Shown: one piece after another, positions 21,925 through 62,009 of the stretch
How positions within the stretch are numbered: position 1 is the stretch's first letter
How the letters are laid out: each line of letters starts with the position of its first letter
Source: Acholoe squamosa
Lineage: Eukaryota > Annelida > Polychaeta > Phyllodocida > Polynoidae
Length of the DNA stretch: 64,000 nucleotides
Assembly (NCBI GenBank): GCA_949317995.1
Contig: OX439045.1
Span: 41,001,693-41,065,692, forward strand
Direction of reading: 5' to 3'
Notes under the pieces: generated by a model
The model's database searches: none
What the model was told of the DNA's origin: nothing
What the model saw: only the letters and a program-made list of their open reading frames with translations
Made by a program: the position numbers and the translations under genes

Positions 21925-23250
21925 TTATACATTGATGGATTCATTTAGGCATTTCTTAGATATAGCCTTGAATTTTTCTTTCTCCCTTATATTTCTGATA
22001 TCGGTTTCTAGATTATTCCATGTTTGTGCACATAGACACTCAGGAGATTTTGTATATGCTGTACAATTAATTTTCATATAATTTAATACGGGAGCACTGG
22101 AGAATCTAGTAATTCTTACAGTCGGTTTAATATATTCCTCCATTGTTGATCTTTTATAGGCAAGCATTTTAATATGATAAAGTCTTCTAGCTTCTAGCAT
22201 GGGAGTATAAGTTTCTCTATGTACAAAGTTGGTAGGGATCAATAAATGAACGTCTAGACAGGTCTTTAAACACTTGTTTTGTAGTCGCTGTAATTCTAGT
22301 AGCAGTATATCACAGTAATCGATAATTGGTATAATATGCATTTTATACATTCTTATTCTTGCTGTGGTTGATAAATATTTCCTAGTTTTATATAAAATTA
22401 ATGATTTAAAGCGAGCATTTTTTATAACATTTCTCACATACATATTAAAATTCATTTCTTGTTCCAGGGTAACCCCTAGGTATTTGTACGATGAGACGTT
22501 CATTAAGGTTTTCCCATTCAGAACAATTTTTGGCTTCTGTATTCTTTTTAACTTAATTGCAGAAGCAAAGGTCATGATTTTAGTTTTAGATTCATTCATT
22601 GTAAGTTTGTTTGCCGCAGACCAAAAAGAAAAAGTATTTAGTGCAGTAGAAAGTTCATTTGTTAATACATCCATATTTTTTCCTGATACGTATAGTACTG
22701 AGTCATCAGCATATAGCAAGGTTTTATGAACATCATTTTCAGAGATACAGTCATTAATATACAATAAAAAGAACAAAGGACCCAAAATTGAGCCCTGTGG
22801 TACTCCACATGATAAGTTTACTCTCTCAGAGTGTTTGTGTTAGCTATGGAACATTGTTGTCTCCTTGACAGATAATTTTCAATTAAGGTTAGATTTCTAT
22901 TCCTGACTCCATACTCTTCAAGTTTATTTAATAATATCAATTGGTTCACTGAATCGAAAGCCTTTTTTATATCTATAAAAGCAGCCATTGTTACATTGCC
23001 CTCATTCATGTTTTTTAATACATTATCAACTAGTACTGAAATGGAGTCAAGTGTAGATTTACATTTTTGGTAGCCACCTTAGTTTTTCGAGAATATATCA
23101 AATCTATCTAAGTGATTGCTTGGTTTGTTGTGTATGAGTCTCTCTAGTATTTTACCTGGAACAGGTAGGACACTAATCAATCTAAGATTTGATACATTGG
23201 ACGGATCACCACCTTTAGGTAATGGAGTCACCGTGGCAATTTTCCAGCTA
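21925..23250 (-). pseudogene. LINE ORF2, reverse transcriptase part
   Basis: The minus-strand translation shows the RT blocks in order: LISVLPVPGK, AFIDIKKAFDSV, CGVPQGSILGP, then LLYADDSVLYVSG (YADD active site at 22,702-22,713), then VSSYKYLGVTL and the C-terminal region through LNESINV. It copies RNA into DNA at a nicked target in an active element. Here the frame is broken by stops near 23,080 and 22,815. The 286-codon stretch from 22,785 to 21,925 is the longest intact piece. The catalytic YADD is preserved. Confidence 0.88.
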
Positions 23251-23264
23251 TCTTCAATCCATTA

Positions 23265-23464
23265 TTTTCTGCAATACCATTTATCAATAATTATATACCT
23301 AATGCATCATAATATATTTGGTATCGTTGGAAAGCTCTTGACATTATGAAAGTTTTGATATCAGAATTATCTTAATCTGGTTAATATTAAACCAATGGTG
23401 GTATGTAGAACATAGATACATGCTTAAGAGCGCACTTTTGCTAATCTGGGCACGTAAGGGTTAA
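23265..23464. repeat. Right-hand fragment of piggyBac-like MITE
   Basis: This matches the last ~195 bases of the complete element at 52,950-53,677, including TATACCTAATGCA, TTGGTATCGTTGGAAAGC-like and GAGCGCACTTTTGCTA blocks. It ends at GTAAGGGTTAA, the element's terminus plus TTAA. The left part is missing. It abuts the LINE on one side and the composite repeat (23,471) on the other. Confidence 0.75.
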
Positions 23465-23937
23465 ATATATTGAACAAGTAACCAATGGATAACTGATGAC
23501 GAGTGGGGGTTATCGACGGATAATAAGACGAGGCCGTAGGCCGAGTCTTATTATCGTCGATAACCCCCACGAGTCATCAGTTATCCATTGACTACTTATT
23601 TTATACCACGAAACCAATAAATAATCAATATAATACCAATAAATTCAATTTGAAAACAAAAATTATTCCCCCTCCCCGGGACTCGATCGAAGCCAGCCAT
23701 AGTGTGTGTACACAGGTACATACACCTCCTTCCCCGGCAGCGGACAGGCAGCCAGCGGCACACGCCTAAAGATTTCAATGCGTCTCGCGGTTATGTTTGT
23801 GTATAATACACCTCTGCGCCCGGCAGCGGACAGCGCACACGGCGAAAAAAGTTTTCAATGCGTCTCGCTGTTATGTTTGTGTATAATACACCTCTGCGCC
23901 TGGCAGCGGACAGCGACAGCGCACACGGCGAAAAAAG

Positions 23938-24012
23938 ATGCGCCCTGGCCGGGATTCGATCCATATACCTCTCACGGCTGAGCGCAAAGCGCTAACCGCT
24001 AGGCCACCGCAC
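23938..24012 (-). repeat. tRNA-derived (SINE-type) module
   Basis: On the minus strand: A-box-like TGGCCTAGCGG, B-box-like GGATCGAATCC (one base off consensus), then CGCATC and a T-run, the usual Pol III stop. It is a tRNA-derived Pol III unit within the composite repeat. The cloverleaf is incomplete, so it is not a working tRNA. Confidence 0.7.
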
Positions 24013-24106
24013 CTTCTCCATTCACTGCATCTCGCGGTTATGTTTGTGTATAAAATACACCTCGTCGCCCGGCAGTGGACAGCGACAGCGCACATGGCGA
24101 AAAAAG

Positions 24107-24182
24107 ATGCGCCCTGGCCGGGATTCGATCCATATACCTCTCACGGCTGAGCGCAAAGCGCTAACCGCTAGGCCACCGCGCC
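24107..24182 (-). repeat. tRNA-derived module, tandem second copy
   Basis: Nearly identical to the module at 23,938 and about 169 bp downstream of it. The flanking TATGTTTGTGTATAAAATAC block is duplicated too, so the whole ~170-bp unit expanded in tandem. Confidence 0.7.
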
Positions 24183-24310
24183 TTTTCCGTTCACTGCATC
24201 TCGCGGTTATGTTTGTGTATAAAATACACCTCGTCGCCCGGCAGCGGACAGCGAAAGCGCACACGGCTTTGTATAATATCTAGACTTGGTTCGAGCCAAG
24301 CTTCTCTCGC

Positions 24311-24387
24311 CAGTCCCTGTGGCGCAGTGCATAGGGAGTTGGATTTCGGATGTGAGACTGCAGGTTCGATCCGTACCCTGGTCTGGA
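24311..24387 (+). repeat. tRNA-derived module on plus strand
   Basis: CAGTCCCTGTGGCGCAGTGC contains an A-box-like element, and GGTTCGATCC is a good B box. It is followed by GGTCTGGAAAATTTTGTG. Same position and orientation as 9213-9290 in copy 1. Confidence 0.65.
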
Positions 24388-24604
24388 AAATTTTGTGGGT
24401 TTTAACATGTGACATGTGACATGGGAGAGGCGTGCTGTTATCCTGGATAACCGCAAGCCTTACCTGGATAACCGCACGCCTTACCTGGATAAGCGCACGC
24501 CTTCCAAAATTGATGTTACAGCCTATAGGGTGTGCAATATCGACAGATATGTGGATGGGAATAGCCACCAAAAAGCACTGTGTAACCCACAAATTGTGGT
24601 ATAA

Positions 24605-25998
24605 CAGTAGATAAATAATCAATGGCAGATGACTTAGATGTATCTATATCAGACAAACATTTTATGATTTCTTCATCAGAAAAAATTATGTCTGGCATGT
24701 CTACCTCGCAGCGAGTACCTTTGAAGTTAAAAATAGTTTGGTGTTGTTCTGCAAGTCTAGGTCCAATCTCTGCGAAAAAATTATTAATATAGGTAGATGT
24801 ATCATTAATCGAAATTACAAGGCCATTTTCATCTGTTAACATAATAGATTTGTTATTGCCTTTTTTTGAAGGTAAAATTTCTTTCATAGTACTCCAGACT
24901 TTTTTCGAATCATTTTTGAAAATTTCAGACAAATTAGAATAATAAGACTCTTTGGCCTGTTCGATTTCTCTGTTAACTATGTTTCTACACTCTCTGGCTC
25001 TGTGCCAAGAGATGATATCCATGCGTTGTCTAGCTAATTTTAATAACACATTTTTGTCGTTAATCCTTTCTAGAAGTTCATTGGACATCCATGGATTAGG
25101 CTTATCTACAACTTTAAAGCTTTTAACAGGACATTGTAAGTCAAGCATTCTTTTTATCATATTTTCCAGTATGTTCCAGCAAATATTTGGGTCATTTGAT
25201 TGATTAAAAAGATTCCAATTACAATTTTCTAGGTCTGAGTAGAATTTTTCTAAATCTAACTTATTGAAAGATCTTCCGAGGAAAGTTCTATAATTCTTCT
25301 TTACATGTATTTGAGATTTCTGAATATGTATGTAAATGGTCTGACAAATGTATGTTCAATGGACCACTAGAGGTGATAGTATCACAGTTTGAAAAAATCA
25401 AATCTATACACGTGTTTGTACCTGATGTGGTTGTGACCTCATTAACGAGTTGTACCAGATGAAAATGATCAAAGGTTTCTATGAGAAGCTGTTTCTCAGG
25501 TGTATTGGTTAATATGTTTACATTGAAGTCTCCAAGAATGAAAATATCATATCCATCTAGATTATCGATTTGTAGAAGTAAGGCTCGCATGGTTTTACAA
25601 AATTCCATAAGATTACCTGAGGGTGGTCTATATATATTACAGACAATACATTTTTTATTTGTTCCTTTGGCTGATAATAGCCATTGAACTTCTATGTTTT
25701 CATTAATTCTATTTAAGTTTTTGAACTTGTCTACTGAACATGATAGCCCCTCATCAACATATGTGCATAGGCCACCTCCTCTATAAATACTGATACGGTC
25801 TTGACGAAAGAGATTATATCTTGGGAAGCTATATAATTTGCTACAATCAGTCTCGTTCAACCATGTCTCAGACAATAGTATAATATCTATAAAGCTATCA
25901 TTTAATTCTTTTTTGATCTTGGTAAACTTATTTCTCACACTCCTTGCATTCATATGTACAATCGAGAAACCTTTTTTAAATTTATTTTTTAAAGACAT
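24605..25998 (-). pseudogene. LINE ORF2, endonuclease and linker
   Basis: The start (25,998) reads through FSIVHMNARSVRNK, LLSETWLNE, RGGGLCTYV, CNIYRPPSG, FILGDFNVN and HLSDHL, the signature of an apurinic/apyrimidinic-type endonuclease that nicks target DNA. A frameshift near 25,290 is followed by the linker frame 25,160-24,605 (for example NPWMSNELLE, KKVWSTMKEILPSK, YINNFFAEIGPRLAE), which in CR1-type elements joins endonuclease to RT. The coding sequence then stops abruptly at the composite repeat. Confidence 0.88.
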
Positions 25999-26330
25999 GT
26001 TAATTTTAAAGAATCATAAATGAATGCGACTCTACATGTAAACAACCTCATCCTATATGAATGCTCAATCTCTCTGCCAATTCATATTTCTATGGACCAG
26101 ACAATCCTCTGCCATACGCGATAAAAAATTTCATACCTCCCTCCCACCACGGGCTTACAGCTCTTCTGGCTACCCATGTTGACAATATATGAGTTTTGCA
26201 GTTAAAGTTTAGAGGCTATTACATCATTTCATCTATGGAACTGTTAAACATAATACAGAAGAAAAGATTTAATGTTGACAAATTATGCCGTTTAATCAAT
26301 TCAGGAACTTATTATTCCTCATCTGGGTTT

Positions 26331-37028: not shown

Positions 37029-38883
37029 ATGGATGTCCCAAGAGACAGTCTGGGAAGAAGAAAGCGAAAGTGCAAGAAAAGAGATACTCCCTTCACTTTA
37101 TTCTCTGATGAAGAGTTTACAGCAAGGTACAGGCTCAGCAAGGAGGTAGTGATGGAGCTGTGCCAGGACTACAGGCTACACAGCAAGTTCAAGGGGAGCA
37201 AACGTGGGGGAGGCCTCTCCTGCATAGAGAGGGTAAGCTGAAATACCTTCTTTTTTTTCATTGTGGTCTGGATGGGGGGGTCCCCCTTCTGACATGTCGA
37301 CTCGATGAAATGGTCATGTCACATATCACTTGATGTCACATGTCACCTCTGTCATGGCCCAACATGTCAATTTCAATAATTTTATGTCAATAATTTTTTT
37401 AGTCATGTCAGTAAATCCCATGTCACATGTCTGTTTCAAGAAATGAGCATGTCACCAGTAGAATTTTGTAGTCCACACCCATGACTAGACGACCTTTTAT
37501 CATGAAGAAAGAAATTTTCTTAATTTATTTATTTATTTCTCCCCTTTTCCTAATACTCTGACATTGATTTCCTTTTTTTTCTTTCAGTTCTGTTAAGTGT
37601 TACGGTATTTTGCCACTGGGAGTTTCTTCGTGCTGACTGGGGACTCCCAGAAGGTATCCAAGTCCGTAGTGTGTAATTCAGTGAAAGATGTCGCTCAATA
37701 CTTCGTCAAGAACCGGCACAAGTATGTGAAGTGGCCCCACTCTTTTGAATCGAAACTGCTTGCGGCCTTGAAGTTATACCGCCACAAAGTCAAGAGGAAC
37801 CAAAGAGAGGTCGAACAAGAGACACCGTTTGTATTTGGATACGTGGATGGCACCCACATCCCAATCAAGTGCCCCTCCAGAAACGAGAGCGCATACGTTA
37901 ACAGAAATCAGTATCACTCCATCAACACCACTGTGAGTTTTTCACCTTTTTCTTACCTTCTGTGGAGTCCTCTTGATTTTTGTTTCCTTAATAAAATAAG
38001 GTTCATCTTCCTCTTTTTTTGTCCTGCACCTCTAGAATTATTATGAAACATATCATCTGTAACAGAATATGGTTAGATGGAATTTATTTCCCTTTTCCTG
38101 ATTTTTATTTCTTTCTTGGTGCAGATTGTCTGTGACTATGACAAACGGATATTGTTCATAGACCCTCGCTTCCCAGGATCGGTGCATGATGCCTACTGTC
38201 TCGCGGCGAGCCCCGTTGGAGATGAGCTCGACCAGGAGATTTGGGGGGATTTTGTTCTCCTAGGAGACTCGGGGTGAGCTTCCTTTCTTAGTCTTTGTCT
38301 CTACTTTTCTTTCACAGCATGCAAAACACTATAACATGTGGCTATCTTCTACTTTTGGCAGATATGGGTTGCGTCGGCACCTCTTCACGCCCTATAAGGA
38401 CGAGACTTCACCCAAGAAGACCGCATTCAACAAGTGGCATAAGAAGAGCCAGGTTCGAGTCGAGCAGTGCATCGGTATCCTGAAGCAGCGTTGGAGGTGA
38501 GTGTAACTCTTTCCCACTCATGAGAAAAAGAAAGGAACTAATTATCTGCGCTTTAACATATTACCTTCCGATATTTTTTTTCTGTGTCATCCTTTGTCCC
38601 TGTCTAAAGCTCCTTTTTTTCTGTTTTTTTTTTGTCTTTCAGGATCTTGGACTCCTCCGCAGGTTACATGAGGCACGAGCCAAAGAGGTCTTCAGACATC
38701 ATAACCAGTTGCGCCTGCCTTCACAACGTGGCCATGGATCATGGCATAAGGATTGTAGATGACCCTGCTGATCCCTGGACACCAGTCCGTCTTCCCCTTC
38801 CCCAACCAAGACAGCTTTCCCGAGAACAGGAAAAGGAGCGTATCAAGTGCTTCCGGGACGAGTACTGCAACAAATACTTCTGA
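37029..38883 (+). pseudogene. PIF/Harbinger DDE transposase (DDE_Tnp_4 type), five coding exons
   Basis: Exons: 37,029-37,232, 37,588-37,932, 38,125-38,273, 38,362-38,496, 38,643-38,883, all GT-AG with matching phases. Exon 1 is the basic N-terminus and start of the helical region (DVPRDSLGRRKRKCKKRD). Exon 2 has YFATGSF, then GYVDGTHIPIKCPSRNES with the first catalytic Asp. Exon 3 has DPRFPGSVHDAYCL and ends LLGDSG, which continues into exon 4 as YGLRRHL. Exon 4 has VRVEQCIGILKQRW with the catalytic Glu. Exon 5 has SDIITSCACLHNVA, the usual C-terminal signature. Total about 357 codons, normal for the family. It cuts and pastes the element in the nucleus. The first acceptor leaves an in-frame TAA at 37,594-37,596, so the copy is probably broken unless another splice is used. 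AATAAA follows at 39,168. Confidence 0.88.
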
Positions 38884-39173: not shown

Positions 39174-39546
39174 CTGTATTTTTGTCAAACTTGTATAAGA
39201 TTGTCCATTTCTCTTTATCATATATATCTTTGTCACATTTAATCCATACTTCATAACTGATTTTTGGTCTGAGCTCTTATGGCTTCCCTCTCTGCCTTCC
39301 TCCTTTTCTTCTCCTCACACAGCTGCAGGTATTCGCTTCTGGTGCAAACCACAACTTTCTGCCCTTGTTTAGGTCTAACTTTGGGTAGAGCAGTCTTTGA
39401 CTCGTCTTTCTTCCTCGCTGCTGCTTTCTGTTTGGATAAATCCTCCATTTTCTTCCTTAATACTGCTTCTTCTTTCTCCCTCTTTCTCTCCTCCTTCATC
39501 TTTGCCTCACGTTCCTCCTTCTCTCCTCTTTCTTCTTTCTTTCTTC

Positions 39547-39795
39547 TGTAGAGGTCGGCGGAAAATGTCTTGGAGAAACCGGGAGTCGAACCCGGGACCC
39601 TCCAACCTGCAGGCGGAAGCTCTACCGCTGAGCTACTTCCCCGTCTGACATTCTCTACCTTCCACCTACATCTGGATCGGTATAATACACAAGGGGGGCA
39701 GCTTATACCGGCTGACCAGCCCCTGAGGGCTGGTGCAACCGGAACGGGGCAGATGGCCTACCGCCATGGACTTACAGCCAGAGCTGGCCCCTACA
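39547..39795 (-). repeat. TRIM 3' LTR (minus orientation)
   Basis: 249 bp, TG...CA ends. It differs from the other LTR only by CTACCGCC against CTACTGCC (plus strand). The tRNA-Cys-like gene sits in the downstream part of the LTR. Confidence 0.9.
39571..39642 (-). tRNA. tRNA-Cys(GCA)-like gene in 3' LTR
   Basis: Identical to the copy at 40,312-40,383, described there. Lies inside a mobile element and is probably not a host tRNA gene. Confidence 0.7.
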
Positions 39796-39803
39796 CTCCT
39801 CCC
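39796..39803 (-). promoter_or_regulatory. Polypurine tract of TRIM
   Basis: GGGAGGAG on the minus strand, immediately 5' of the 3' LTR. This is the standard place for plus-strand DNA priming. Confidence 0.75.
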
Positions 39804-39960
39804 AACCAGCTTCAACCATGGCCAACCAGCACCAAGCATTCCTCCCAACCAGATCGATTGGGCTTTATCAAGCAGTGTGAGGCACTCCTGACTTCCCAGT
39901 TGACCTACCAGTACACAGTACTGCCAGGGTCGAAGCGTATCTGTATTATACCGTTCCAGG

Positions 39961-40081
39961 CACCTACACCTGGATTGGTATGACACACACATAGGGGGGA
40001 GCTACCACCGGATGCCAGCCCCTGGGGGCTGGGATCTCCAGAAACGGGGCTGCTGGCCTTACGGCAGAGCTGGCCCCTACA
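39961..40081 (-). repeat. Diverged partial LTR inside the TRIM
   Basis: Blocks CACCTACACCTGGATTGGTA, CAGCCCCTGGGGGCTGG and GAGCTGGCCCCTACA correspond to the upstream (U3-like) half of the LTR, without the tRNA part. It is bordered by its own CTCCTCCC (a second polypurine tract, 40,082-40,089). This looks like a relic of an older LTR retained by recombination or template switching. Confidence 0.7.
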
Positions 40082-40272
40082 CTCCTCCCTACCAGATTCA
40101 ATATAGGGTTCAGTACCCTATAGGTACCAGATACCCGGGACTAGTACTGAGTCGCATACCGGCCACCTGTTTCCAAGTCTCCCCAGTACTAGCAAATTGA
40201 ATCGTCATTCGTGTCATACCAGCCCAGGTACCGAGTTCTCGTAGTCCCCCCTCACACGGGTCAGGACCAACT

Positions 40273-40286
40273 CGGTTTCTCCACCA
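40273..40286 (-). promoter_or_regulatory. Primer-binding site matching the LTR-encoded tRNA
   Basis: TGGTGGAGAAACCG on the minus strand, one base from the 5' LTR. All 14 bases are complementary to the 3' end that the LTR tRNA would have after CCA addition (CGGTTTCTCCA + CCA). The genome after the tRNA reads AGA, not CCA, so the TGG can only reflect a mature tRNA. Confidence 0.82.
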
Positions 40287-40287
40287 G

Positions 40288-40536
40288 TGTAGAGGTCGGC
40301 GGAAAATGTCTTGGAGAAACCGGGAGTCGAACCCGGGACCCTCCAACCTGCAGGCGGAAGCTCTACCGCTGAGCTACTTCCCCGTCTGACATTCTCTACC
40401 TTCCACCTACATCTGGATCGGTATAATACACAAGGGGGGCAGCTTATACCGGCTGACCAGCCCCTGAGGGCTGGTGCAACCGGAACGGGGCAGATGGCCT
40501 ACTGCCATGGACTTACAGCCAGAGCTGGCCCCTACA
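40288..40536 (-). repeat. TRIM 5' LTR (minus orientation)
   Basis: 249 bp with TG...CA ends. Contains the tRNA-Cys-like gene 24 bp from its internal end. Followed on the outside by target duplicate CTTC. Confidence 0.9.
40312..40383 (-). tRNA. tRNA-Cys(GCA)-like gene in 5' LTR
   Basis: 72 nt fold as a full cloverleaf: acceptor GGGGAAG/TTTCTCC (7 pairs with two G-U), D stem GCTC/GAGC, anticodon stem TCCGC/TTGGA (one mismatch), loop CTGCAGG with anticodon GCA (Cys) after a U33, 5-nt variable loop, T stem CCGGG/CCCGG with loop TTCGACT, discriminator A. A box TAGCTCAGCGG and B box GGTTCGACTCC fit consensus, and TTTT follows six bases downstream (Pol III terminator). It therefore looks transcribable. 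It reads in the same sense as the element. Whether it is charged and used in translation is unknown. Confidence 0.8.
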
Positions 40537-41689
40537 CTTCCTTCCTTCTCTCTTTGTCTTTATCTTTTGTTGGTACTTTAGTGGTCTTCATTTTGGTCTT
40601 AGCCTTGGAGAAGTCGGCAGTACCTGGTCTCTACAGATGGTTTTCTGTTATGCCTGACTGTGTCTTTGGTTTGGTAGGGTCCAGCTCCATGGGAGTAACT
40701 CCTGGAATACCTGAAAACATACAGATGTTTCCTGAGTCTCAAAAGTACATAATATTTTTTTTTTCTCGCTGTGTTTGGAAAAAAAAATTAGATGTCTTTT
40801 ATTCTAAACTCAATAAGAGGTTGAATAAGGTAGGGTACAGTGACTACGGTAGTCCATCCTCACCTCGAACTGCCTCTGGTTTCAGATATTCTAAAGCTTT
40901 CTGCTGGGTCTTGGACAAAAGCAACTTCTTTGCAGGTGGTCCGCTTCCTGTCTTTTTGATCTCCCTTCTTAGTGTATTGTACTGTAAGTAAATAGATTAG
41001 CATAAAAATTTTGTTATTTTGCTTATTTCTCTTCACTAACTTTATTGTTATGTTGAAAAAGAAAAATTTCACTTCTCTCCTACCTTTTGCTTCATCTTTT
41101 GGGTGAAATCAGACGCCTTATCAGAGCACTGTCTGACAGTCCGGTGAGTGTGCGCTTCCGAGTTAACGTACACTGAAAGAATTAAGAAGAAAGTATTAAA
41201 TTTATAAATTCTTTTTTTATGAAGTAACTTGCCTTGAAAAAAAAGGGGAAGATATAAGATTATTCTATCTAAGTAATAAACTTACATGCCACGTCTCTCC
41301 ATGCTTGCCGCCTTATGTCCCTCCCTCCTCCTGTGCCGCTGAAGTGGAACTTTATAGCGTCCCGGTTTAAGTTTATTGCATCCATTAGGGCTTCTACTTC
41401 TTTCGTCTTCCACCTTTCTCTGGAGACAGGAAGGTCGTTTCACATAGGGAGATCTTCTGCTTCACTTTCGGAGTCACTGGTGTTGGACTGATGGTCAGCG
41501 TAAGAAGCTCCTACCAAGGTATCGTTTGCTTGCTTTTCTCGATGTGCATTTTCTGGCTGGTAAAGGACTGTAGAGGCCTCTGAGTCAACCGAGAAATCCT
41601 TATGCTTCAGTATCATTTGTGTTCTTTTCTTAGGTCTCTTATCAGGCTGACCCTGCTGTCATAACATGGAATAAAAAAATTATTAATTA

Positions 41690-42714: not shown

Positions 42715-45700
42715 CTATTTCTTTTTCGATCCATTCTTTGGGGCCTTCCTTTTTTTCTTAGGCTGTCCTTTGGTAGCCTCTGCTACCCTTTTCCTGGTCG
42801 CAGGACCCGGCTTAGGATCAACAGCCAGGTGAAGGGAGTGGAGAGTTTCTGCCGCTGTGATCACCTCTTTGTCAGGTTCAGGCTCTGTTAGTTCCTCTAG
42901 AGGCTTCTCCTTCTTCAGTACCCCTTCTATGTTACTGCAGTCGAGCACTACTCCCCCTGAGATATATCTATGTGGACCCTCTTGATTTTACGCGGAGGAG
43001 GGTGTGTTCTGGCACATGTAGAAAGAACCACACATAAACCAAGTCTTCCTTCTGGAACTTCATCGTCTACGTTTATGAGAGAAACCTCGAGGTCTTCTTT
43101 AGTCTGAATAGCGCCTTGCTGCAAATGTGGCTGTTCTTTTCCAGCCTCTTTTTGGGTGTCTTGTGCTACCTCTTTCACTGTCTCTTCACCTCCATCTTCT
43201 TTAAGTTTTGGACATGGTACTACTTCGCTGTCCTCTCCTGCCTCACAGCTTACACCTTCAGTTTTATCTCCTTCTGCCGCCTCTTTCTGTAAGTCAGTTC
43301 CTCTGAGAGTTTGGCCATCTTGACCCCCATCCTCAAGGACATCATTCCCTCCCTGTTCTAGTCCTTCGTTATGAGCCTGCATGTCAGTGCTTCCCTCTTT
43401 CATAAGATCACTACCTCCCTGTGCTTCTATGTTAGAACCTGCATCACCCGCGTCACTATGGGAGTCTTTTCCAGGCTCTGAGAGGTCAGTATGCCCCTGA
43501 TTGCCTTGCTCAATAAGCTCGTTATGCGGTACATTCAATGGCTGGGTGACCTGATTTTGAGGGTCATCACCTGGCGGAGAAGGAAGTTGAGTCCTTCCTC
43601 TCCCTCCTCTTCATAAAGAACCTCTTGGTAAACAACCTCTCTGTTCATGTTGTTTCCCGCGTCTCCTTGATCGTGCTCTAGAGGCTCGCTTTTAACCACA
43701 CAACCAGCATACGATCCTCCCTGCTGCTCTTCCTGTTCTTGGGCTGCAGGTTCCCCCGCTAAAACCAAAGTTAGAGGGGAAGCTTGGTTTACGGTGGGAC
43801 CTGTGACTAGTTCTCCATTGCCATTGACATGAAGGAGGTTTTGGGCCACTGTTGACTGGTCTGCAGAGGGATCGAGCGTCAAAACTGTGAAAAACAAGGC
43901 AAAAACTTTTTTTGTGCTTTCTTCAGAACAAGAGTGAAACATAACTATACACAGGTGAGAAGAAAAATCTTCCCTTATGTCCCGTAGAGAAAATAAGAGA
44001 CCTTCGCCCCTTTTTCTTTATGATACCAGCCAGATTTACCTTACAGCTCAGTTTCTCTGTCTTTACGGTGTTTTCTTTTATTCTGTTTTTCCAATAACTT
44101 ACAACTTCCCAATCTTTTTGGACTAACTATATGAAAAAGCACAGATAGGCCTGGAGGTCGTTGCACAAAGAGCGTGCCTTCGTTCTGCTTTTTTCTCTCG
44201 TCAGTACGAGATTCACAAAGAGACTTATTGGATAGGACAAGATACATTTAGACTATGAAAAAAAAAAAAAATACTTACCTTTCAAGGCACCTGAAGACGA
44301 AGGTTTAACAACAAGTGGAAAAGTAGGAAACTCAGGAACAGGCGGGGTCTGCGTGGTTTCACACATCATCATGACAGGCCTCCTTTGGAGCCCGTCGGTC
44401 ATGTGAATGACCTTACCGGAAACTGTAGGATATAAAAAGTTGAAACGAATAAAAAAACTTATGCCAACTGTATAAGTCACGCTGTGACGATCTGTCTCGT
44501 TGTGCAAACAAATAAATATAAGTATTTTTGTTGGTCAAGAAAAACTTCAGATGAGAGTGAAAATGAAATAAAAAAAGGAAATGCCAGACACCTAGACACT
44601 TACTGCTACACATATTTTTTTTCTCGATTTATGACATGTCCACCCAAATAAAGCCTTACCGTTTATAAGTTGAGCCACATTACGGCTGCAAGTTGCCTGA
44701 GTGTCAATGATAGACTGCAAGTGACGGCTGGTAGTTTCCTGCGTTTTCACGATGGACTCCCTGTCTGACACTATCCTCTCAAGCACTGTTCCTAGCCTCT
44801 CATGCACCTCTGTGCATCGACTCAGGAAGGACATCATGTTATCCACGTTGTCCCGTCTGTGTACTTCCATAGTGGTCATAAAAGACTCGATATTGGCTAA
44901 TCTGATTTCCTGGTTCTTAACCTGATTTGCTATTTCTTCTTCTTTACTCGAGGCATCTGTGGTTTTTGATTCAAAGTCTAATTTCTTTCCTCTGCCCCCA
45001 GAGTTTTTCTTCTCAAGAATCGGTGGACTACGCCGTACTTCCTTTTTGACTTCCGACTTTGGAGTAGAAGTGAGGGGGACTTCCTGTTGAATACCGGTCA
45101 AGTCCACTATGTCGGTGTCTGTTGACACAACGTCTACTTGCATGTCATCAGATCTGTCGTCTCCTGTCAAATCAACGTCAAAGGCAGCAGCGTTCCTGAC
45201 TGCCCGAACACCTGGTTTCTTGAAAGGAGCCTTAGCGGTACCTCTTCCAGAGGGAGAAGGAGCAGGTTTAGCCTTCGCTTCCTTTGTATTTGCAGCAACT
45301 TTGGCCTTTGTCGCTTTCGGTGTGTCAGTGACCTTGGCCCCACCTGCTGCTGCTGCAGCCTTACCCGGTTTCTTGAAAGGCACCTTGACTGCCGGAGACA
45401 CAGGTCCTTTCCCTTTTTTAGGCATGGGACACTGAAACTGTGCCAACAGCTCCTTCACTGAAGGCACAACCAAAACTTTAAGGGGAGACGGAGCAGCACC
45501 TTTAGCTTTAACTCTAGACTGCACAGCAGGGGACTTCTTGGCCTGTTGCCTTCGTTTCTTTTCCTCTTCCACGGGATCCGTGTAGTAGACTATTTCCCCT
45601 CCTTGCCCTGAAAAAAAAAAAATTCTATTGTTCAAGGGAAATTGTGGTCCAAGAAAATACACATTGTCAAGAATAGAACAACGTGAGGTATCGCTATCAA

Positions 45701-46929
45701 AGAGAGAAAGAAGAAGAAAATAGGTCAAAAGAACAAACAATATTAGGTCTGCTGTGTTTTACTATGAATTTTGGGAAAGCGTAGACCCATCCTAATATTT
45801 ATGCATTTTTCTTGAAAACATTTATTTATTCAAAGGAAAAAAAATGCCTGTGCTGAAAACACAATATTCAATAAAAGTAAAATTCAGGACGCTCACAATA
45901 AGTTAAAGATAGGGCCTAGTTTCATTCTTAAAAGAAATTTCTTTCTGTCTTACCGGCAATTCTCTCGACTCCCTTATACTTCAACAACATCATGTCGGTC
46001 AAGGAGCATCCTTCACATGGTTTTCCTTTCTCTATCAGGTATAGATATTCCTCGTTCTGAAAAGCATGAGAAAATAATGAGGACAAGAAAATGAAAATTA
46101 ATGGGGAAGGAGGTCAGAAAGATACAGAAGAAATAAGACATCAATTTAAGTTACACTAACTTATATTTTGAAAGGTGTAGCAAATCACTATCAAGAGTAT
46201 AATATATTTTTTGTTCGCTCACCTTTGCCTTAAGCTTAGAGAAATAATCATTCACGTGATGCTGCATTTTGTCTAACTCCCGGTTCGCATTCTTGATGCT
46301 GTTCACTGTGGCTGCAAGAGATCAAAGGAGACATAGAATATCTGAGAAAAAGAACAGCTCTCTTCATGAAAAACACACAGAAGGCACTTAGTTCTGTTTA
46401 ACTTTGAGGATAAGAGAAAAGATAAAGATTTTTTTCTGTCATAATGTCAAACTTAATAAAAAAAAAACTCACCTAGAACTGTGTCCCAACCTTCTCTCCT
46501 CAGCTGTGCTCCATTCTTCCCCCTAGCCTTGATATACGGCTTCTGATTGAGGAGGGCAAAGAACAGCGCTCTATGCTCAGCTTCAGTCCAGTATATGTCT
46601 CTGGCCCTCTCTGTCCCCCGGGAAGTTAAGTTCGTTTCAGGCCTGCTGGAGGGACCCGCCTTAGATTGTTTTGCCTTAGCCTTTTTCACCTTACCCTTTC
46701 GAACAGGGCTATCTTCCTCTGAGAGTTCACTAGAATCCTCTAAAATGTATTCCTCTTCTTCCTCTCCTTGCTCTAGTCCTTCTTCCTCCTCGTCTGATCC
46801 TTCTGTTAGGGTGTTAGTTTTCAAAATTTCTGGTAACTCGAACGACCTGCTGCCCGTTTGGGTCGCAAGATCGTACTCCTCTTCCTCATCGTCTTCGTCG
46901 CTTGAAGACAAAGCATAACAACGGTCGTA
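42715..46929 (-). pseudogene. Harbinger SANT/Myb-like accessory gene Q
   Basis: Minus-strand exons with consistent phases: 46,929-46,473; 46,311-46,223 (89 nt); 46,056-45,954; 45,607-44,660; 44,422-44,279; 43,885-42,715. First visible exon: acidic tract (SSSDEDDEEEEY), then SANT/Myb-like ERARDIYWTEAEHRALFFAL and LRREGWDTVL. The 316-codon exon has basic Ala/Lys/Pro-rich sequence (FKKPGKAAAAAGGAK), DVDLTGDD and DTDIVDLTG repeats that resemble SUMO-interacting motifs, and a C-terminal coiled coil. The last exon is a long Gln/Glu/Gly-rich acidic region ending PKKKRKAPKNGSKKK, a nuclear-localisation-type tail. Frameshifts near 43,600 and 42,957 break the last exon. The exon carrying the ATG is not found. 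Presumed role: DNA-binding partner of the transposase. About 970 codons, far larger than usual Harbinger Myb proteins. Confidence 0.72.
44153..44230. repeat. Internal inverted copy of the Harbinger right terminus
   Basis: GGTCGTTGCACAAAGAGCGT, then GCCTTCGTTCTGCTTTT, then GAGATTCACAAAGAGACTTA: about 72 of 76 bases match the inverse of the right end (47,567-47,642). It lies in an intron of gene Q. With the true right end it would bracket a 3.5-kb sub-element. Confidence 0.8.
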
Positions 46930-47429
46930 CTGAAAAAAGAAAATATATATATTTATTTTCAGGAAAAAAGAAAATTAGGGGGGAGGAGAGGGGGACTTTT
47001 TTTCAGGTACTGTTAATTATGAAAAAATGAATCTAAGAATGTCTGAATAACTCGATTTTTTCTCTTCTTTGCCGTAAAATTCGAAGAGAGGGAGAAAAAA
47101 AAAGAAAATGAAAAGAAATAACAAGACAGAGAGAGAGACACGCTCAAAAGATGTAAGAGCGAACCAAATTACCCTATTAACGCCCGACCCGGCAGAGAAA
47201 GAAAGCTAACAGAACGACGGAAAAGGAATAACAGTCTAAGAACAGCATGTCATTGTCTTCTTCTGAACAACATCTACCTTATAGAACACTATTTTAAAAG
47301 AAAACTTATTTCTGAAGCGTAGTGAGACATGATATATCCCTCTGTTTCGTTGATCGAAGCTGGCCTCTTGTTGACATCAGCGCGGGCACCAGAAGTGACG
47401 TTCTGCCTAACTGGGTCAAAATACGCGGG

Positions 47430-47642
47430 TGCCCTGTCGTTTTTTCTCGCTGTGCTAGAGTCTCGCTGCAGCAGCGAGGAAACCACAGCGAGTCCTGTTT
47501 TTTTGGTCTCGCTGTCACAACGACTCTCGTTGTAAAAAGGCAGAACATATTGTGCAACGGTCAGAAATAAGTCTCTTTGTGAATGTCGTACTAACGAGAG
47601 AGAAAAGCAGAACGAAGGCACGCTGTTTGTGCAACGACCCCC
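47430..47642. repeat. Right terminal and subterminal repeats of Harbinger element
   Basis: Inverse motifs of the left end: TTGTGCAACG twice (near 47,551 and 47,628), several CTCGCTGTG/CTCGCTGCAG blocks, and CTCGTTGT. Tip GTGCAACGACCCCC. Confidence 0.75.
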
Positions 47643-48128
47643 AGATAACGAACCATGCATAAAGAAACGGTCTATCTCATGTAACCTATTTTCTTAAGAC
47701 TGGGTGGGAACTGCAGGGAGCGTACTCAGTTTTTAACTCAGGAACATAACGCACTCCTCATCCTCTTCGAACCTTCTCCACCCTTTTGTTGAAGAAGGAC
47801 CGTTCCCATACTGCAGTCTCCCAGTCTGGGATGTGGGAGCTACCTCTCCTCCTGCCCATACACAGACACTCTAGCTCCGCCCCCCAGACTGGAAAGGCTG
47901 TCAAATTGGGGGAGTCTTTTAACTCCATAGCTTATCCCACACATTGATAATTGGAATATCTAAAAGGCCAAGAACCAGAGCCAATCTAGTACAATCTACC
48001 CAAACAGTCTTAATTTTGGATTCTTGAAAGTGTCGAGTATCAAAGGAGAGAGACGGAGAGACAGGGACAGACATACAGAGAGACAGAGGAGTTAAAGAAG
48101 TCATTCAACGAAGAGAATTAGGAGAAAC
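47643..48128. promoter_or_regulatory. Upstream region of the SLC6 gene
   Basis: Lies between the Harbinger right end and the SLC6 start codon. It contains a purine-rich GAGAGACGGAGAGACAGGGA stretch near 48,050. No TATA box or other core element that I would defend. The Harbinger insertion puts foreign DNA within 490 bp of the start codon. Confidence 0.35.
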
Positions 48129-57200: not shown

Positions 57201-60200
57201 ATCCACCCTTCCTCCTGCAGGTATGGAGTGACGCTGCCATTCAGGTGTTCTTCTCTGTTGGATGCTGCTGGGGAAATTTCATCACTATGGGTAAACACAA
57301 CAATTTCAGGAACAACTCGATTGTGTAAGAGCTCTTACTCCATTAAGATACGGTCATCTATTGTGGCATCCATTCATAATTTATAGAGCCAGCCTTTAGA
57401 CATAGTCCCGTGTGAGTATTGAGCTGTGACTTTCTTTTCATATTTCTAGTGATGCTGGCATCCTAGTGGTCGGGGACTTCCTCACAAGTGTATTCTGTGG
57501 ATTTGTCATCTTTGCAATTCTTGGACAAATGGCGGCTCAGATTAACCTACCCATCGATCAAGTGGTGGCTTCAGGTAAACTGCTGTAAACTCAAATTTGT
57601 ATTCAGGTTCGATCTGTTTTCAATAGTCTATGGCTTTCACCAAAAACTTCCAACAGCAATGTTGTATCTCTATTTGATTATATGAAGTCTTTCAAACAGT
57701 AGTATAGAGGGGAATGTGTTCTATTTCAACGAGTTGATATTGAGATTTGTTAATGCCCTACTAATATAATAAATCTCAACCATGTCTTCGTATCACTGGA
57801 CGCGCTTGGTTTAGCATTGAAATATACAAAACGGTACCTAAATATAGCAGCGTCCAAAAATAACTGTTCCTTATGCTTTGTCTACAGCGTCTCCGGGTCA
57901 TCGGACGCGCTTGGTTTGGCATTGAAATATACAAATACCAGAGTGACCCACTGACCTCATGTATGGGTGTAGAATATACTTAGCGGTTATGTACCAGGCT
58001 ACCTATATATTTCCACATATGATTATAATCTGTTATTATCTATCAACCCTACGTTATCATAACCGGTAAAGCAATGCACTTAATAATTGTACATAATTTT
58101 ATCTAACCAGGCCCATGCTCCAGACCCCCTTTCAATGACAGTCAAACAGCCTAGATATATTTCCACTGTGATCATCTCTCATACCTATCATTCATATCAT
58201 TCATATCATTCATATCAAGTATATTGTACAGTGAGTCACTATCAAAATGGTAGTATTAGATGATATTAAGTCACAAAAGGGTCTAAAGGTTTTTTGTACA
58301 AATACTCGTTCTATATACGGTAAAAGGACAGATACTTTTAGGCTAATTACTTTTTCAGATAACACTGGCATTGTAGAATCATGGTTAAAACCTTCTGTAC
58401 TGGATGATGACTTACACATCCCTGGGTATCAATATGTAAGACTAGATAGGTATCCAAGTAGAGACAAAAACGCAGGTGGCCTTATGCTGTATCTAAAAGA
58501 TCATTATATTGCTATCCCTGATCTTACGTGCTCTTTTATAGAAAATGACTTTGAAATACTGTGTGTAGATGTTCAAATAAAATGTTATAAAATATAAGAT
58601 CTTTGTATGCTATCGACCACCTGATAGTAAGGATAAAGGTGCAATATATAATAAATTAACCACCCTTCTGAAAAATGTAACAAAAAATAGAAAACTTATA
58701 CTAATGGGAAATTTCAATGTTAATTTATTATATAAAAAGGATGTTGAAGACGCTACTGTGAACGAATTCTGTACCGGTAATAAACTGTTCCAAATTATGA
58801 AAGATATCACTAGACCTGTATCAGGAACCATATTGGATCATATTTATACAAATGTACATAATATTGCCTACTCTGGCTTGGTCGATGTACACATCTCGGA
58901 CCATACCCCCATATTCATGACTTTAAAATGTGAAAAAGTCAAATTAAAGAAGAAGATTGTATATGCTAGGTCCTATAGAAGATATGACTTCCTAGCTTTC
59001 AAAAACATGCTCACACAACATGACTGGACTGATATAGTAGTTTTAAATGATATCAATGATATGTGGAATAAAATCATAAATGTAATTTTGACTAAACTAA
59101 ACACCATATGCCCTATAAAGAGGATGAACATACCAGATTACACACCACCATGGCTAACACAACAGATACTAGAACTAATGAGGGTACGAGACAAACTCTA
59201 TAGAAAGGCCAGGTCCACTAAATCAAATGGTGACTGGGCTGCTGCTAAGCATTATAAGCTCATAGTAAAACGAGAACTTTTTTACAGCCAGAAGCATGAA
59301 ATTGAACTATTATTAAGATTTAGAAAAACGGATCCAGCTAAATTCTGGGATGCCATACACAAACTTTTGCCACATAAAACAAGTAGTACCCTTATTAAAC
59401 TTAGGAATCGGACTACTAACTTAATTGTTCCTCCTGATGCATGCGCTGAGTACATAAACAGCTTCTTTGTAAATATTGGTGAAGACTTAGCAAAAGCTCT
59501 ACCACCTGGAGAAGGGGCACAAGCAGCCAATGTACCATATGGAAATCCAACCTTGAATACTAACCTCATGTATGATATCTCTTACATTGATATGATTAAA
59601 ATGATAAAAGGGATTAACATCAAGAAACCTTCTGCTATAAAGAATTGTAAATCATATATAATCAAGGATGCATTTTTTGCCATTGCGGATGTAATATTGG
59701 TATTATATAATCAGTGTCTACCTACTTCGGTATTTCCGACTGTCTGGAAAGCTGGGACTGTAATTCCCCTTCATAAAAAAGCAAACTCTCTTGATGTGAA
59801 TGACCTTAGGCCTATAAGCTTACTACAAATACCAGGAAAAATCCTGGAAAAGATTGTTTGTAATAGACTCCAGTCTTATATGAAAAACTGTAATCTACTT
59901 TGCCCATCACAGCATGGATACAGAACTGGACATTCCACTCAGTCAGCCATAACGGAACATCTATCCACTATTATTAATAACATCATATTAAATAAACCTT
60001 CATATTGTCTATATTTAGACTACAAAAAAGCTTTCGACACTGTCTCACATTCAAAATTACTAGGGAAAATGTCTGCTTTAGGTCTTGACTTTGCCACCTG
60101 CTAATTCTTTGAAAATTATCTTAATAATAGAACACAAAATACTATTGCAAATGATGTACTGTCCACCTCTAAAAATTTGAAATATGGAGTACCGCAGGGA

Positions 60201-62009
60201 TCAGTCTTAGGTCCTGTGCTAGAATTAGAAAATTTGCTCTGGATATTTTCAAAAGTATGATATTGCCAACTTTCGACTATTGTGATTTCATATGGGATAG
60301 AGATTACAGGGGAGAAACAAAAGAATTACAATTACTACATAATTGGGCCTTAAGGGTTGTTTATAAAGTTAAATTGGAAGAAAATCCAACCATGACAACA
60401 GAGCAAATTAAAAACACAAGTAAATGTATGGAACTTGCCGATAGAAGAGATCAACATCTTTTATTCTATGCCTTTTTCCTGTCAAAATGTGAAAATCTAG
60501 TTGACAATAGAAATATACCCGCCCGTTTCCATCAAGGAAAAAGATTGTTATTACCACACTGTCTTAAACCTCTTGTTATCAGAAGCGCTTTATATAGAGC
60601 TTGTGCCAGGTGGAATCAACTAAAAGCAAAATATACAACCATTGAGACCCTATCTGAGTTTAAAAACTCTATTAAGAAAGACTACCCAGACTGTTTCATG
60701 TAATAATTTGTGTGACTATGAAATATTAATTCTCATCCTCATCTCATCTCATCATTAATTGATCGCTAATGTTCTTTTGAAATCTTTGATACGGTATTAA
60801 TGATGTACTGTTAATGCATATTGCAGTTATTGGGCCATTACTGATTAATTTTATATATCAAGACTGTCTTAATCAGAGTTGAAACATGAAGGGGGCTTGG
60901 TATAACTACCACAATGCGTGGGCACCAGGTTTCAATTGCACTTACTCTGTAAATGTAATTATCCCAATAAACAACTTTTAAAAAAATGTCTCATAGATCA
61001 CTACTAAGGTAGCCAATCTTTGCCAAAGTGGTCTCTGTGGCATTCAATGACCACCAAATTTACCTTGTAGGCTAATTTGTTGTTATTTATTTTGCGTATG
61101 TCTCAGGCCCAGGCTTAGCCTTTGTTGTGTACCCCCGTGCTGTGATGGCTCTGCCCTTGTCCCAGCTGTGGTCCGTGCTTTTCTTCCTAATGCTGACCAA
61201 CCTGGGTCTAGGATCTGCCGTAAGTATATATGAGGACAAGTGATGGGTGATTCACGTTATAAATATGCTAACAATGTACAGAAGTCAATGCACATTAACG
61301 TGTTATATCATTTAATCCCAAATTGAATATGAAAGGTCCATAGGTTTGACCAAGAACCTCCATAATTATCACACTCCCAGTGTGATAACCCTACCCTGTA
61401 TCATACTTCTCTAGTATATAGGTAGGTCAATACAATAGACTGCATAAGCATGCAGGCGAAATTCTAAACTCATTTTCTCTCTAACATACACGGTTTAGAT
61501 CCCTCAGCTGGCCAATATTCTGGGTTCTCTAACAGAGGAAATAGAAGTCCTGAGCTCTAAGTGGAATCGCCTTATCACCCTTATCTGCCTGGCTTCTGTT
61601 TCCTTCCTTATAGGACTGGTGTACACTACAAATGTAAGTAAAGCTTCAGGTATATATGCACCTTATTACATGTATTTGTTCTCCTGCAAATGTAATATTT
61701 TCACTGTATATCATAATCAAATTAATTTTCTAAAATTAAGCTTATTGGCAATGTGACGAAGAATTTACACACCCACTTTTTAGCAACTATCTGCAGCCTA
61801 TAGCATACTTTTAGTCATGTGCTAATAATTACTGTAGGCTAAAGCTAACACGCCTTTGTAACAATTTGAATCAAAATGAAAAAAAAAATGTCATGTTCAA
61901 AACTTGCAGGGAGGTATATACGTGTTGACGCTGATGGATTACTATGGACCCCCGTTTTGTCTAGTTGCAATTGGCCTGTTCGAAGTCTTGGTAGTCGCAT
62001 GGATATATG
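48129..62009 (+). CDS. SLC6 family Na+/Cl- dependent transporter (amino-acid/neurotransmitter type), 3' end outside window
   Basis: Eleven exons joined in phase give 477 residues covering TM1 to TM10 of the 12-helix LeuT fold; family members are about 600-650 residues. Exons: 48,129-48,291; 54,508-54,639; 55,277-55,420; 55,862-56,009; 56,262-56,394; 56,653-56,787; 57,221-57,324; 57,450-57,574; 61,107-61,219; 61,499-61,633; 61,910-62,009. Hallmarks: [19 protein letters not shown] (TM1), [10 protein letters not shown] with the EL2 disulfide cysteines, [29 protein letters not shown] (TM6), [18 protein letters not shown] (TM7, chloride-site Ser kept), [13 protein letters not shown] (TM8). It imports substrate across the plasma membrane with Na+ and Cl-. 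TM1 has Gly rather than the Asp of monoamine transporters, so the substrate is probably an amino acid. TM6 [10 protein letters not shown] is closest in style to glycine and B0,+ transporters. Subfamily is inference. Confidence 0.92.
48920..49045. repeat. 126-bp MITE in SLC6 intron 1
   Basis: ~34-bp near-perfect inverted ends CTAGGG.AACGTTCAACAAT followed by TATGTCACTGT, around a ~55-bp loop. Confidence 0.85.
49345..49764. repeat. ~420-bp MITE in SLC6 intron 1
   Basis: Short inverted ends: CCAGTGGTGGATTTAG on the left and CCAGGAGCGGATCCAG on the right (inverse). A related internal block TCTTGGATCTACCA is at 49,470. Confidence 0.55.
50165..50236. repeat. (CTAAA)n-type minisatellite
   Basis: Irregular run of CTAAA, CTAGA and CCAAAA units. 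Confidence 0.8.
50640..50770. repeat. ~131-bp MITE in SLC6 intron 1
   Basis: Inverted ends AGGGCTGCGTCCACTGCGAC on the left and AGGGGTGCGTCCACTGCCGA on the right (inverse). The GGATGGACCATCC palindrome is present in both arms. TA flanks each side. Confidence 0.85.
50790..51560 (-). pseudogene. Decayed coding-like fragments, unknown element
   Basis: Minus-strand pieces read like protein: 51,531-51,349 ([20 protein letters not shown], then [15 protein letters not shown], then an acidic tail) and 51,186-50,905 ([34 protein letters not shown]), with a basic continuation near 50,900-50,800. Their frames are separated by stops. Composition suits a transposon ORF, but I recognise no domain. It lies antisense in SLC6 intron 1. 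Confidence 0.35.
51515..51700. repeat. Degenerate repeat of GACGACCTAA
   Basis: GTCAT/GACGA/CCTAA blocks recur about every 30-38 bases in both orientations. Confidence 0.55.
51701..52775. other. SLC6 intron 1, nothing recognised
   Basis: No exon, tandem repeat or inverted repeat that I can support. Confidence 0.5.
52776..53985. repeat. Older repeat of CCAAAACGCAATAAATCC units, split by a MITE
   Basis: TTCCAAAACGCAACAAACCC occurs at about 52,778. After the inserted MITE, TTCCAAAACGCAATAAATCC-like blocks recur near 53,687, 53,718, 53,930 and 53,960. The MITE at 52,950-53,677 entered this older repeat. Confidence 0.6.
52950..53677. repeat. 728-bp piggyBac-like MITE with TTAA target duplication
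   Basis: TTAA flanks both ends. Termini CCCTTTCATGCTCAGAATTA and (inverse) CCCTTACACGCCCAGAATAG match at most positions. A TTAA duplication plus CCCT tips is the piggyBac pattern. No transposase. A right-end fragment of the same family is at 23,265-23,464. Confidence 0.8.
54508..54639 (+). CDS. SLC6 exon 2: TM1 end and TM2
   Basis: Acceptor ATCACAG. Reads [20 protein letters not shown], then [18 protein letters not shown]. Donor CCAAG|GTAATT, phase 1 to phase 1. Confidence 0.93.
55277..55420 (+). CDS. SLC6 exon 3: TM3 and start of extracellular loop 2
   Basis: Reads [20 protein letters not shown], then [20 protein letters not shown] and GNPWNTP. The donor must be CCCT|GTAGGT: the alternative eight bases later would create a stop in exon 4. 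Confidence 0.88.
55862..56009 (+). CDS. SLC6 exon 4: extracellular loop 2
   Basis: [20 protein letters not shown], then [10 protein letters not shown]. The Cys closes the loop-2 disulfide. Asn of NES and NIT are likely glycosylation sites. Donor ACAA|GTAAAG, phase 2. Confidence 0.88.
56262..56394 (+). CDS. SLC6 exon 5: TM4
   Basis: [20 protein letters not shown], then [17 protein letters not shown] and GTKSWGK. Donor GGAAAG|GTATGC, phase 0. Confidence 0.92.
56653..56787 (+). CDS. SLC6 exon 6: TM5 and extracellular loop 3
   Basis: [19 protein letters not shown], then [17 protein letters not shown]. 45 codons, phase 0 at both ends. Confidence 0.92.
57221..57324 (+). CDS. SLC6 exon 7: TM6
   Basis: [20 protein letters not shown], then [14 protein letters not shown]. 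Donor ATTGT|GTAAGA, phase 2. This helix lines the substrate site. Confidence 0.92.
57450..57574 (+). CDS. SLC6 exon 8: TM7
   Basis: [20 protein letters not shown], then [20 protein letters not shown]. Donor TTCAG|GTAAAC, phase 1. Confidence 0.92.
57798..57935. repeat. 33-bp direct duplication in SLC6 intron 8
   Basis: GGACGCGCTTGGTTTAGCAT... at 57,798-57,830 recurs with one change at 57,903-57,935. Confidence 0.85.
58247..58597 (+). pseudogene. LINE endonuclease N-terminal fragment
   Basis: [49 protein letters not shown]: the first half of an AP-endonuclease. A one-base shift near 58,590 moves the rest ([13 protein letters not shown]) to the next frame. Confidence 0.82.
58593..60216 (+). 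pseudogene. LINE ORF2: endonuclease end, linker and 5' half of RT
   Basis: [13 protein letters not shown] and [10 protein letters not shown] finish the endonuclease. [20 protein letters not shown] and [16 protein letters not shown] form the linker. [39 protein letters not shown] and [16 protein letters not shown] are RT blocks. TAA at 60,102-60,104 interrupts the frame, which continues to [14 protein letters not shown] and then breaks off. Confidence 0.88.
60218..60703 (+). pseudogene. LINE ORF2 C-terminal fragment after an internal deletion
   Basis: Starts [20 protein letters not shown] and continues to [10 protein letters not shown] and DYPDCFM. It joins directly to the [10 protein letters not shown] block, so the YADD catalytic region and the thumb start are missing. 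Confidence 0.82.
61107..61219 (+). CDS. SLC6 exon 9: extracellular loop 4 and TM8
   Basis: [20 protein letters not shown], then [18 protein letters not shown]. The Asn-Leu-Gly-Leu-Gly-Ser stretch is the usual Na2-site region of TM8. Phase 1 to 0. Confidence 0.92.
61499..61633 (+). CDS. SLC6 exon 10: TM9
   Basis: [20 protein letters not shown], then [20 protein letters not shown]. 45 codons, phase 0. Confidence 0.92.
61910..62009 (+). CDS. SLC6 exon 11: TM10
   Basis: [20 protein letters not shown], then [13 protein letters not shown]. Donor ATATG|GTAAAT, phase 1. TM11-TM12 and the C-terminus are not seen before the window ends. Reading through the donor would end after about 20 residues (ESNHYPMNF, stop), unlikely to be the normal product. 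Confidence 0.88.

Follow-up and report, generated by a model that had tools for sequence, protein, structure and literature searches.

A Helenus-type TRIM family of Acholoe squamosa with LTR tRNA genes complementary to its own primer-binding site, and its possible self-encoded primer

We identified in the annelid Acholoe squamosa a TRIM retroelement whose LTRs each contain a tRNA-like gene, and whose primer-binding site (PBS) is complementary to the 3' end of that same tRNA followed by CCA. The best explanation, which the sequence comparisons below make probable, is a Helenus-type TRIM that provides its own reverse transcription primer as a free LTR tRNA. The wider statement that the primer is encoded by the element in either form, as a free LTR tRNA or as a fold-back of the element RNA, is quite likely to hold. 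The primer of most LTR elements and retroviruses is a tRNA taken from the host, and Tf1-type elements are an exception; Tf1 primes with the 5' end of its own mRNA and uses no tRNA, which sets it apart from the priming proposed here.

The element was found in a window of 64,000 nucleotides, the whole stretch of DNA that was analysed (assembly GCA_949317995.1, contig OX439045.1, positions 41,001,693 to 41,065,692). It spans positions 39547-40536 of the window and measures 990 bp. It is read on the minus strand, which makes the right-hand LTR its 5' LTR, and the order in element sense is 5' LTR (40536 to 40288), one C, PBS, internal region, PPT and 3' LTR. The features are as follows:

40288..40536, minus strand: 5' LTR, 249 bp, TG...CA
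40312..40383, minus strand: tRNA-like gene of the 5' LTR (ARAGORN, Rfam, cloverleaf), 3' end CCCGGTTTCTCCA
40303..40306, minus strand: TTTT, putative Pol III terminator of the 5' LTR, starting five bases past the tRNA
40273..40286, minus strand: PBS TGGTGGAGAAACCG, with spacer base 40287, complementary to the element's own tRNA-CCA
39796..40287, minus strand: internal region, 492 bp
39961..40101, minus strand: degraded duplicate of U3 and PPT within the internal region, in pieces of 82-90% identity, without the tRNA
39796..39803, minus strand: PPT GGGAGGAG, abutting the 3' LTR
39547..39795, minus strand: 3' LTR, 249 bp, one difference from the 5' LTR
39571..39642, minus strand: tRNA-like gene of the 3' LTR (ARAGORN, Rfam), identical to that of the 5' LTR
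39562..39565, minus strand: TTTT, putative terminator of the 3' LTR
39543..39546 (left) and 40537-40540 (right), no strand: target site duplication CTTC, flanking both element ends

An earlier sequence-only reading had described 249-bp LTRs with a single difference, a CTTC duplicate, a tRNA gene in each LTR, and a PBS one base inside the 5' LTR with 14 bases complementary to the tRNA-CCA. All of these were recovered; the TTTT, which it had placed six bases downstream of the tRNA, starts after five. Both LTR genes are called tRNA-Cys(GCA) by ARAGORN, and the Rfam tRNA model scores 52.3 bits (gathering threshold 29, E 2.3e-08), with boxes A and B present as judged by eye. The Rfam scan of the window returned no RNA family other than tRNA, 5S rRNA included. 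The pairing between PBS and tRNA covers 14 contiguous bases, namely the last 11 bases of the tRNA and CCA; base 15 mismatches and base 16 pairs again. Within the internal region there is no open reading frame of at least 120 aa in element sense, and a 143-aa stop-to-stop frame of the opposite strand overlaps part of it. The CTTC duplication is weak taken singly, because the flank is CT-rich. The relic of U3 and PPT at 39961-40101 is what an origin of the element from a fused dimer might leave behind.

Other features were noticed around the element. A multi-ORF stretch at 42948-47693 (minus strand) is probably itself a mobile element, because it recurs, by eye, inside an LTR-element copy (L195); Pfam gave nothing above cut-off on the two pieces of it that were scanned. 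Reading frames at 21925-26013 (minus) and 58235-60703 (plus) resemble, by eye, pieces of a non-LTR retrotransposon endonuclease and reverse transcriptase. A weak DDE_Tnp_4 match at 37597-38046 (plus; E 0.00068, below the Pfam cut-off) is perhaps a piece of a Harbinger-like transposase. Elsewhere in the genome, GTTCTACCCCCATGTTCTCCA and close variants, met in the search for altered tRNA base 66 described below (L116 read), recur often paired ~12 kb apart; they probably represent the LTR of a long element that has nothing to do with the TRIM.

The LTR tRNA combines G3:U70 and A73, which we take to be alanine identity features, with an anticodon of the Cys type whose stem contains a mismatch, and the nearest host sequences are those of host tRNA-Ala. 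Judged by its acceptor and T arm, it is better described as tRNA-Ala-like than as the tRNA-Cys(GCA)-like gene first proposed. Other subfamilies of the element carry the anticodon CGA (Ser-type) or TGC. The acceptor pair 6-67 is A-U, U-A or U-G across the three tRNA types (with the TAT tRNA idealised), and it stays pairable in all of them, so that the fold is kept. If charged, such a tRNA could mistranslate, given its alanine identity features and its Cys- or Ser-type anticodon.

The 1.48-Gb assembly (63 contigs) was then searched for all copies, as had been suggested from the window alone. With the element as query, 3380 first-look candidates came up, and 40 of them were scored. Full-length (990-base) matches at 99-100% identity numbered 42, counting the window copy and overlapping tandem copies, and these young copies retain the match between PBS and tRNA. 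Exact LTR-PBS junctions of the group number at least 1,812 in the genome; the exact junction was absent from IMG/VR in a search that possibly left out near records. Tandem LTR-internal-LTR-internal-LTR arrays were seen at three loci (L002, L003 and L006), and at L002 a single CAGT duplication encloses the whole array. An assembly artefact, which the sequence-only reading had raised as a possible source of the direct repeats, is unlikely, because the copies lie on many contigs and eight of the nine evaluable distinct long loci, the window copy included, have their own 4-bp duplications (L006 has none).

A pattern for tRNA 3' ends with TTTCTCCA, designed to exclude the window's own tRNA type, gave 3,050 matches against 7 in the reversed control. 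The samples read were taken from matches listed in contig order, up to 100 per pattern, and lean to contig C1; the loci read belong to several subfamilies, whose anticodon loops are GCA, CGA or TGC and whose LTR ends lie 429-741 bp apart. Most copies read carry the tRNA. Many loci consist of a solo LTR or a 3' LTR and lack a PBS. Where present, the PBS reads TGGTGGAGA, then A, C or T, then ACC, save for point changes (e.g., L021 and L034), and is followed mostly by GAG, after which the sequences diverge. In most copies read, as in the window, the LTR tRNA fails to pair with PBS base 15 (exceptions L052, L130 and L168); at L130 the PBS matches its own tRNA over 20 bases, counted by eye.

Several known systems share parts of this arrangement. 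Cassandra and Ajax likewise have a Pol III gene in a TRIM LTR, and Cassandra, like the present TRIM, reportedly forms tandem arrays; their gene is a 5S rRNA gene whose small RNA is not described as a primer, whereas Rfam finds only tRNA in the present LTR. Lund and colleagues are said to have complemented a PBS-impaired MLV vector in 1997 with an engineered tRNA-like primer, also matched to its PBS, but in a laboratory construct. Tf1-type elements, named as self-priming in the accessible part of PMC6934838, resemble the present proposal in using an element-derived RNA as primer. The closest fit is given by Helenus, a group of TRIMs of 311-1263 bp with tRNA-derived LTR sequence, for which the accessible text of Kojima (2024, PMC10886601) states that complementarity between LTR tRNA and PBS could not be found. 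Helenus as described in that text and the present TRIM have in common a size within this range, two LTRs, a PBS, a PPT and no coding region; an LTR tRNA-like sequence with boxes A and B as putative Pol III promoter; 4-bp duplications (in the animal families of Helenus); a presumed Gypsy helper; and a tRNA unlikely to serve its nominal isotype. The present PBS differs from Helenus as there described in being complementary to its own LTR tRNA over 14 bases and in differing with it between subfamilies. As far as that text defines the group, the present family is a Helenus and departs from its no-complementarity statement. A literature search to which most subscription papers were closed found no report of an LTR element carrying its own tRNA primer or a self-matching LTR tRNA. 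Only the self-match is new, tRNA-bearing TRIM LTRs in animals being already known from Helenus.

The PBS-tRNA match goes beyond chance: it includes eleven tRNA-specific bases, the element occurs in many copies, and differences in the PBS go along with differences in the tRNA. The match may nevertheless reflect the use of a host primer, since the LTR tRNA resembles host tRNA-Ala. A first alternative, which we consider unlikely, makes a host tRNA-Ala the primer, acting through a 10-nt PBS or as a rare Ala-AGC variant, and leaves the LTR tRNA as an Ala-derived Pol III promoter only, as in other Helenus. The other Helenus elements, for which the accessible text of PMC10886601 gives no self-complementarity, would be in keeping with it.

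A host-type Ala pattern gave 218 matches, many of them in one array on C12, and we read 20 host Ala genes, 4 further ones and an array variant (L229). The array, at C12 ~51451334-51477175, is a large tandem array of host tRNA-Ala(AGC), with spacings often of ~290 and ~390 bp among the matches listed. All seven Ala-TGC genes and two of the three Ala-CGC genes end in GGCATCTCCA, the remaining Ala-CGC gene ends in GGCGTCTCCA, and 13 of 15 Ala-AGC genes end in GGGTTCTCCA (L190 and L229 differ). The LTR-tRNA 3' ends to be compared with these are GGTTTCTCCA, GGTGTCTCCA and GGTATCTCCA. Over 10 bases the three PBS types find exact matches in host Ala-AGC, Ala-CGC (L178 type) and Ala-TGC; position 67 is A, G or T in the host Ala classes too, and a 10-nt PBS would therefore fit a host primer. 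The match ends there: the 24 host Ala genes other than L229 pair with at most 10 contiguous PBS bases and break at base 11 or earlier, against 14 contiguous bases for the element's own LTR tRNA, as set beside the first 20.

PBS base 11 is therefore informative. It is A, the partner of LTR-tRNA U66, in 1,800 of the 1,812 junctions (1,783 + 17, with 12 exceptions); these junctions share CTACA-N-TGGTGGAGA and CC, and as the patterns fixed the other PBS bases, the count speaks to base 11 only. The PBS records the primer used, since the primer is copied into it (PMC4549124, accessible part), and routine priming by the common host Ala tRNAs should thus have left its own base, G or C, at this position. 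Four of the 12 exceptions have the Ala-AGC type; the Ala-TGC and Ala-CGC types are not represented among them. Within a subfamily, moreover, the three PBS types are not freely interchanged, which also argues against host priming.

A point for a host primer is L229. This Ala-AGC variant shares its last 13 bases with the window tRNA and ties with it over 14 bases including CCA, and three members of the array carry the 3' end CCCGGTTTCTCCA, one of which (L229) was read. Its acceptor stem contains a C-U mismatch, and it would serve the TTT type only. Among the host tRNAs read, none had a better PBS match or a match over 18 bases.

Two further searches for host tRNAs were made. A host tRNA with a 16-base PBS match (T stem CTCGG) was sought among 26 matches; the 20 regions read (21 matches) held no stand-alone host tRNA, 19 matches lying in clear element LTRs and two (L045 and L048) in fragments that look element-derived. 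A host tRNA starting with GGAGAAR was sought among 47 matches (control 7); the 30 loci read (28 places) included none, and they were element LTRs or diverged LTR-like copies except for three chance matches (L061, L070 and L076). Two loci of this search, L081 and L083, proved to be TGC-type LTRs, and this prompted the co-variation test.

Co-variation of the two sites was assessed in 57 copies that were picked solely for their PBS junction, so that the tRNA played no part in the choice; they comprised 17 of 17 of one pattern, the first 24 of the A type and all 16 of the C type among 100 listed. Besides the window type, a second tRNA type has the 3' end GGTGTCTCCA with PBS TGGTGGAGACACC, and a third has GGTATCTCCA with PBS TGGTGGAGATACC. 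In 51 of 56 scorable copies tRNA base 67 and PBS base 10 were concordant (T/A 23, G/C 14, A/T 14). A script scored 50 of the 54 properly parsed rows as concordant (T67/A10 23, G67/C10 14, A67/T10 13); by eye, L125 was concordant, L149 discordant and L131 unscorable, its tRNA end being missing. Predicted duplexes were best with the element's own tRNA, except that the TAT and TGT tRNAs tie on the TAT PBS. Self-priming as first proposed is supported by this concordance, and the tie with L229 over 14 bases counts against it.

Some observations count against self-priming. The five discordant copies (L120, L121, L149, L166 and L168) are among them, and so is the mismatch of the LTR tRNA with PBS base 15 in the majority of copies. 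Altered tRNA base 66 was found in 598 matches (control 41), and the eight read were four host Ala-AGC genes, three element copies and one other repeat. Two of the three element copies have a PBS, neither of them concordant; L113 and L114, picked for the altered base 66, keep A at PBS base 11.

A tree was built without the tRNA 3' end and the PBS, leaving out L125, L131 and L149. In it the G/C copies form one group and the A/T copies another, and 3 changes are needed at tRNA base 67 and 5 at PBS base 10. As there are only 1-3 independent pairs, a sign test has no power, and significance was not reached. The co-variation argument amounts to about two complementary independent switches, not 51 events. 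This small number is what one would expect if tRNA and PBS came from one old host primer tRNA by shared ancestry only, so that the match is a relic and the junctions described below are DNA rearrangements. We hold this second alternative to be very improbable: the two switches seen are complementary, PBS base 11 fits the LTR tRNA across nearly all junctions, and the young copies keep the match.

Junctions of tRNA-CCA with antisense LTR were met in a search confined to tRNAs that have C or T two bases past their end. Of 80 matches, 31 read tRNA end plus CC, and 20 were fetched, 19 of these 31 and one host variant; one CC match (C11:22880725) has a T arm unlike the element's. All 19 consist of LTR-tRNA sequence, CCA, one spacer base and an antisense LTR end. 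Extension of a tRNA primer to give minus-strand strong-stop DNA would produce this order, which lends support, not proof, to priming by the LTR tRNA. At L213 and L220 a GCA-type tRNA is fused to a CGA-type LTR, and at L226 a TGT-type tRNA to a TTT-type LTR, so that the two parts come from different copies. L212, L223 and L230 hold the 3' part of the tRNA only, with the T loop typical of the LTR tRNA and not that of the host Ala genes read, which is a further point against a host Ala primer.

In 15 of the 19 junctions the sense arm, judged by eye, extends upstream of the tRNA 5' end into the LTR. This counts against self-priming by the free tRNA, because a fully processed tRNA would not do so, and it is what would be seen if the primer were instead the 3' end of the element RNA, cut at the end of the 3'-LTR tRNA, CCA-tailed, and folding back or acting in trans. 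Six junctions with near-identical arms (100-102 of 101-102 positions: L211, L215, L216, L218, L222 and L224, some perhaps duplicates) point the same way, as does L216, where PBS sequence precedes a shortened sense LTR. This third alternative nonetheless appears improbable. A TTTT lies in the tRNA tail of 54 of the 57 PBS-selected copies (53 by script, L125 by eye) and suits a short Pol III transcript, the differing arms of L213, L220 and L226 show that cis pairing cannot explain all junctions, and DNA rearrangement could account for them. The CCA complement is also present in every PBS, and the same junctions could result from recombination between inverted copies via the 10-13-base inverted repeat (microhomology). 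Such a repeat can drive rearrangement, as the relic explanation would have it: at L217 the U5 tail that separates the tRNA end from the PBS has been flipped in place between the two inverted repeats.

A helper element is presumed for the TRIM. The PBS was found behind other LTR ends in 130 matches (control 5). Of the 100 listed, 86 read GACA-A-TGGTGGAGAAACC, and the ten read (L195-L204) continue with CTC; this group looks like another LTR family. No tRNA was found in the stretches of this family that were read, nor in L195. In L209, RVT_1 (E 6.8e-30) and an aspartic protease are above cut-off and gag is below it, the matches lying over stop-bounded frames in a stretch that stops short of the 3' LTR and integrase. 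On our reading the L209 family is Gypsy-like, and it has 13 PBS bases in common with the TRIM. A different LTR-like end followed by PBS TGGTGGAGACACCGACAT was seen at L205 and L210 (C13:5502839-5509338); it fits the G67-type tRNA over 14 bases by eye, with weak gag and RT matches nearby on the other strand.

Taking the favoured explanation, that the LTR tRNA itself is the primer, the cycle would run as follows. Each LTR would be transcribed in element sense as a Pol III-type tRNA gene, and the transcript would be trimmed at the tRNA 3' end and then receive CCA. The last 13-14 bases of the tRNA-CCA would anneal to the PBS one base past the LTR in the TRIM RNA, and probably also to the RNA of a Gypsy-like helper with the same PBS. 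The helper reverse transcriptase would extend the primer, and the helper integrase would yield the 4-bp duplication. We propose that every round copies the primer back into the PBS, which would let the LTR tRNA determine the PBS sequence and make the two change in step.

Our wider reading is tentative: a family of at least 1,800 copies would encode its own primer, primer and PBS would form a locked pair in three versions, and the Gypsy-like helper family may be primed by the TRIM tRNA. If so, the element would be freed from the host tRNA pool, and primer and PBS would be seen to change together. Such a family would also offer a reason for the presence of tRNA genes in the LTRs of some TRIMs. 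In genomes of this kind, many predicted tRNAs may then serve as primers and not in translation. Should the TRIM tRNA indeed prime its helper, the supposed parasite would supply the element on which it depends.
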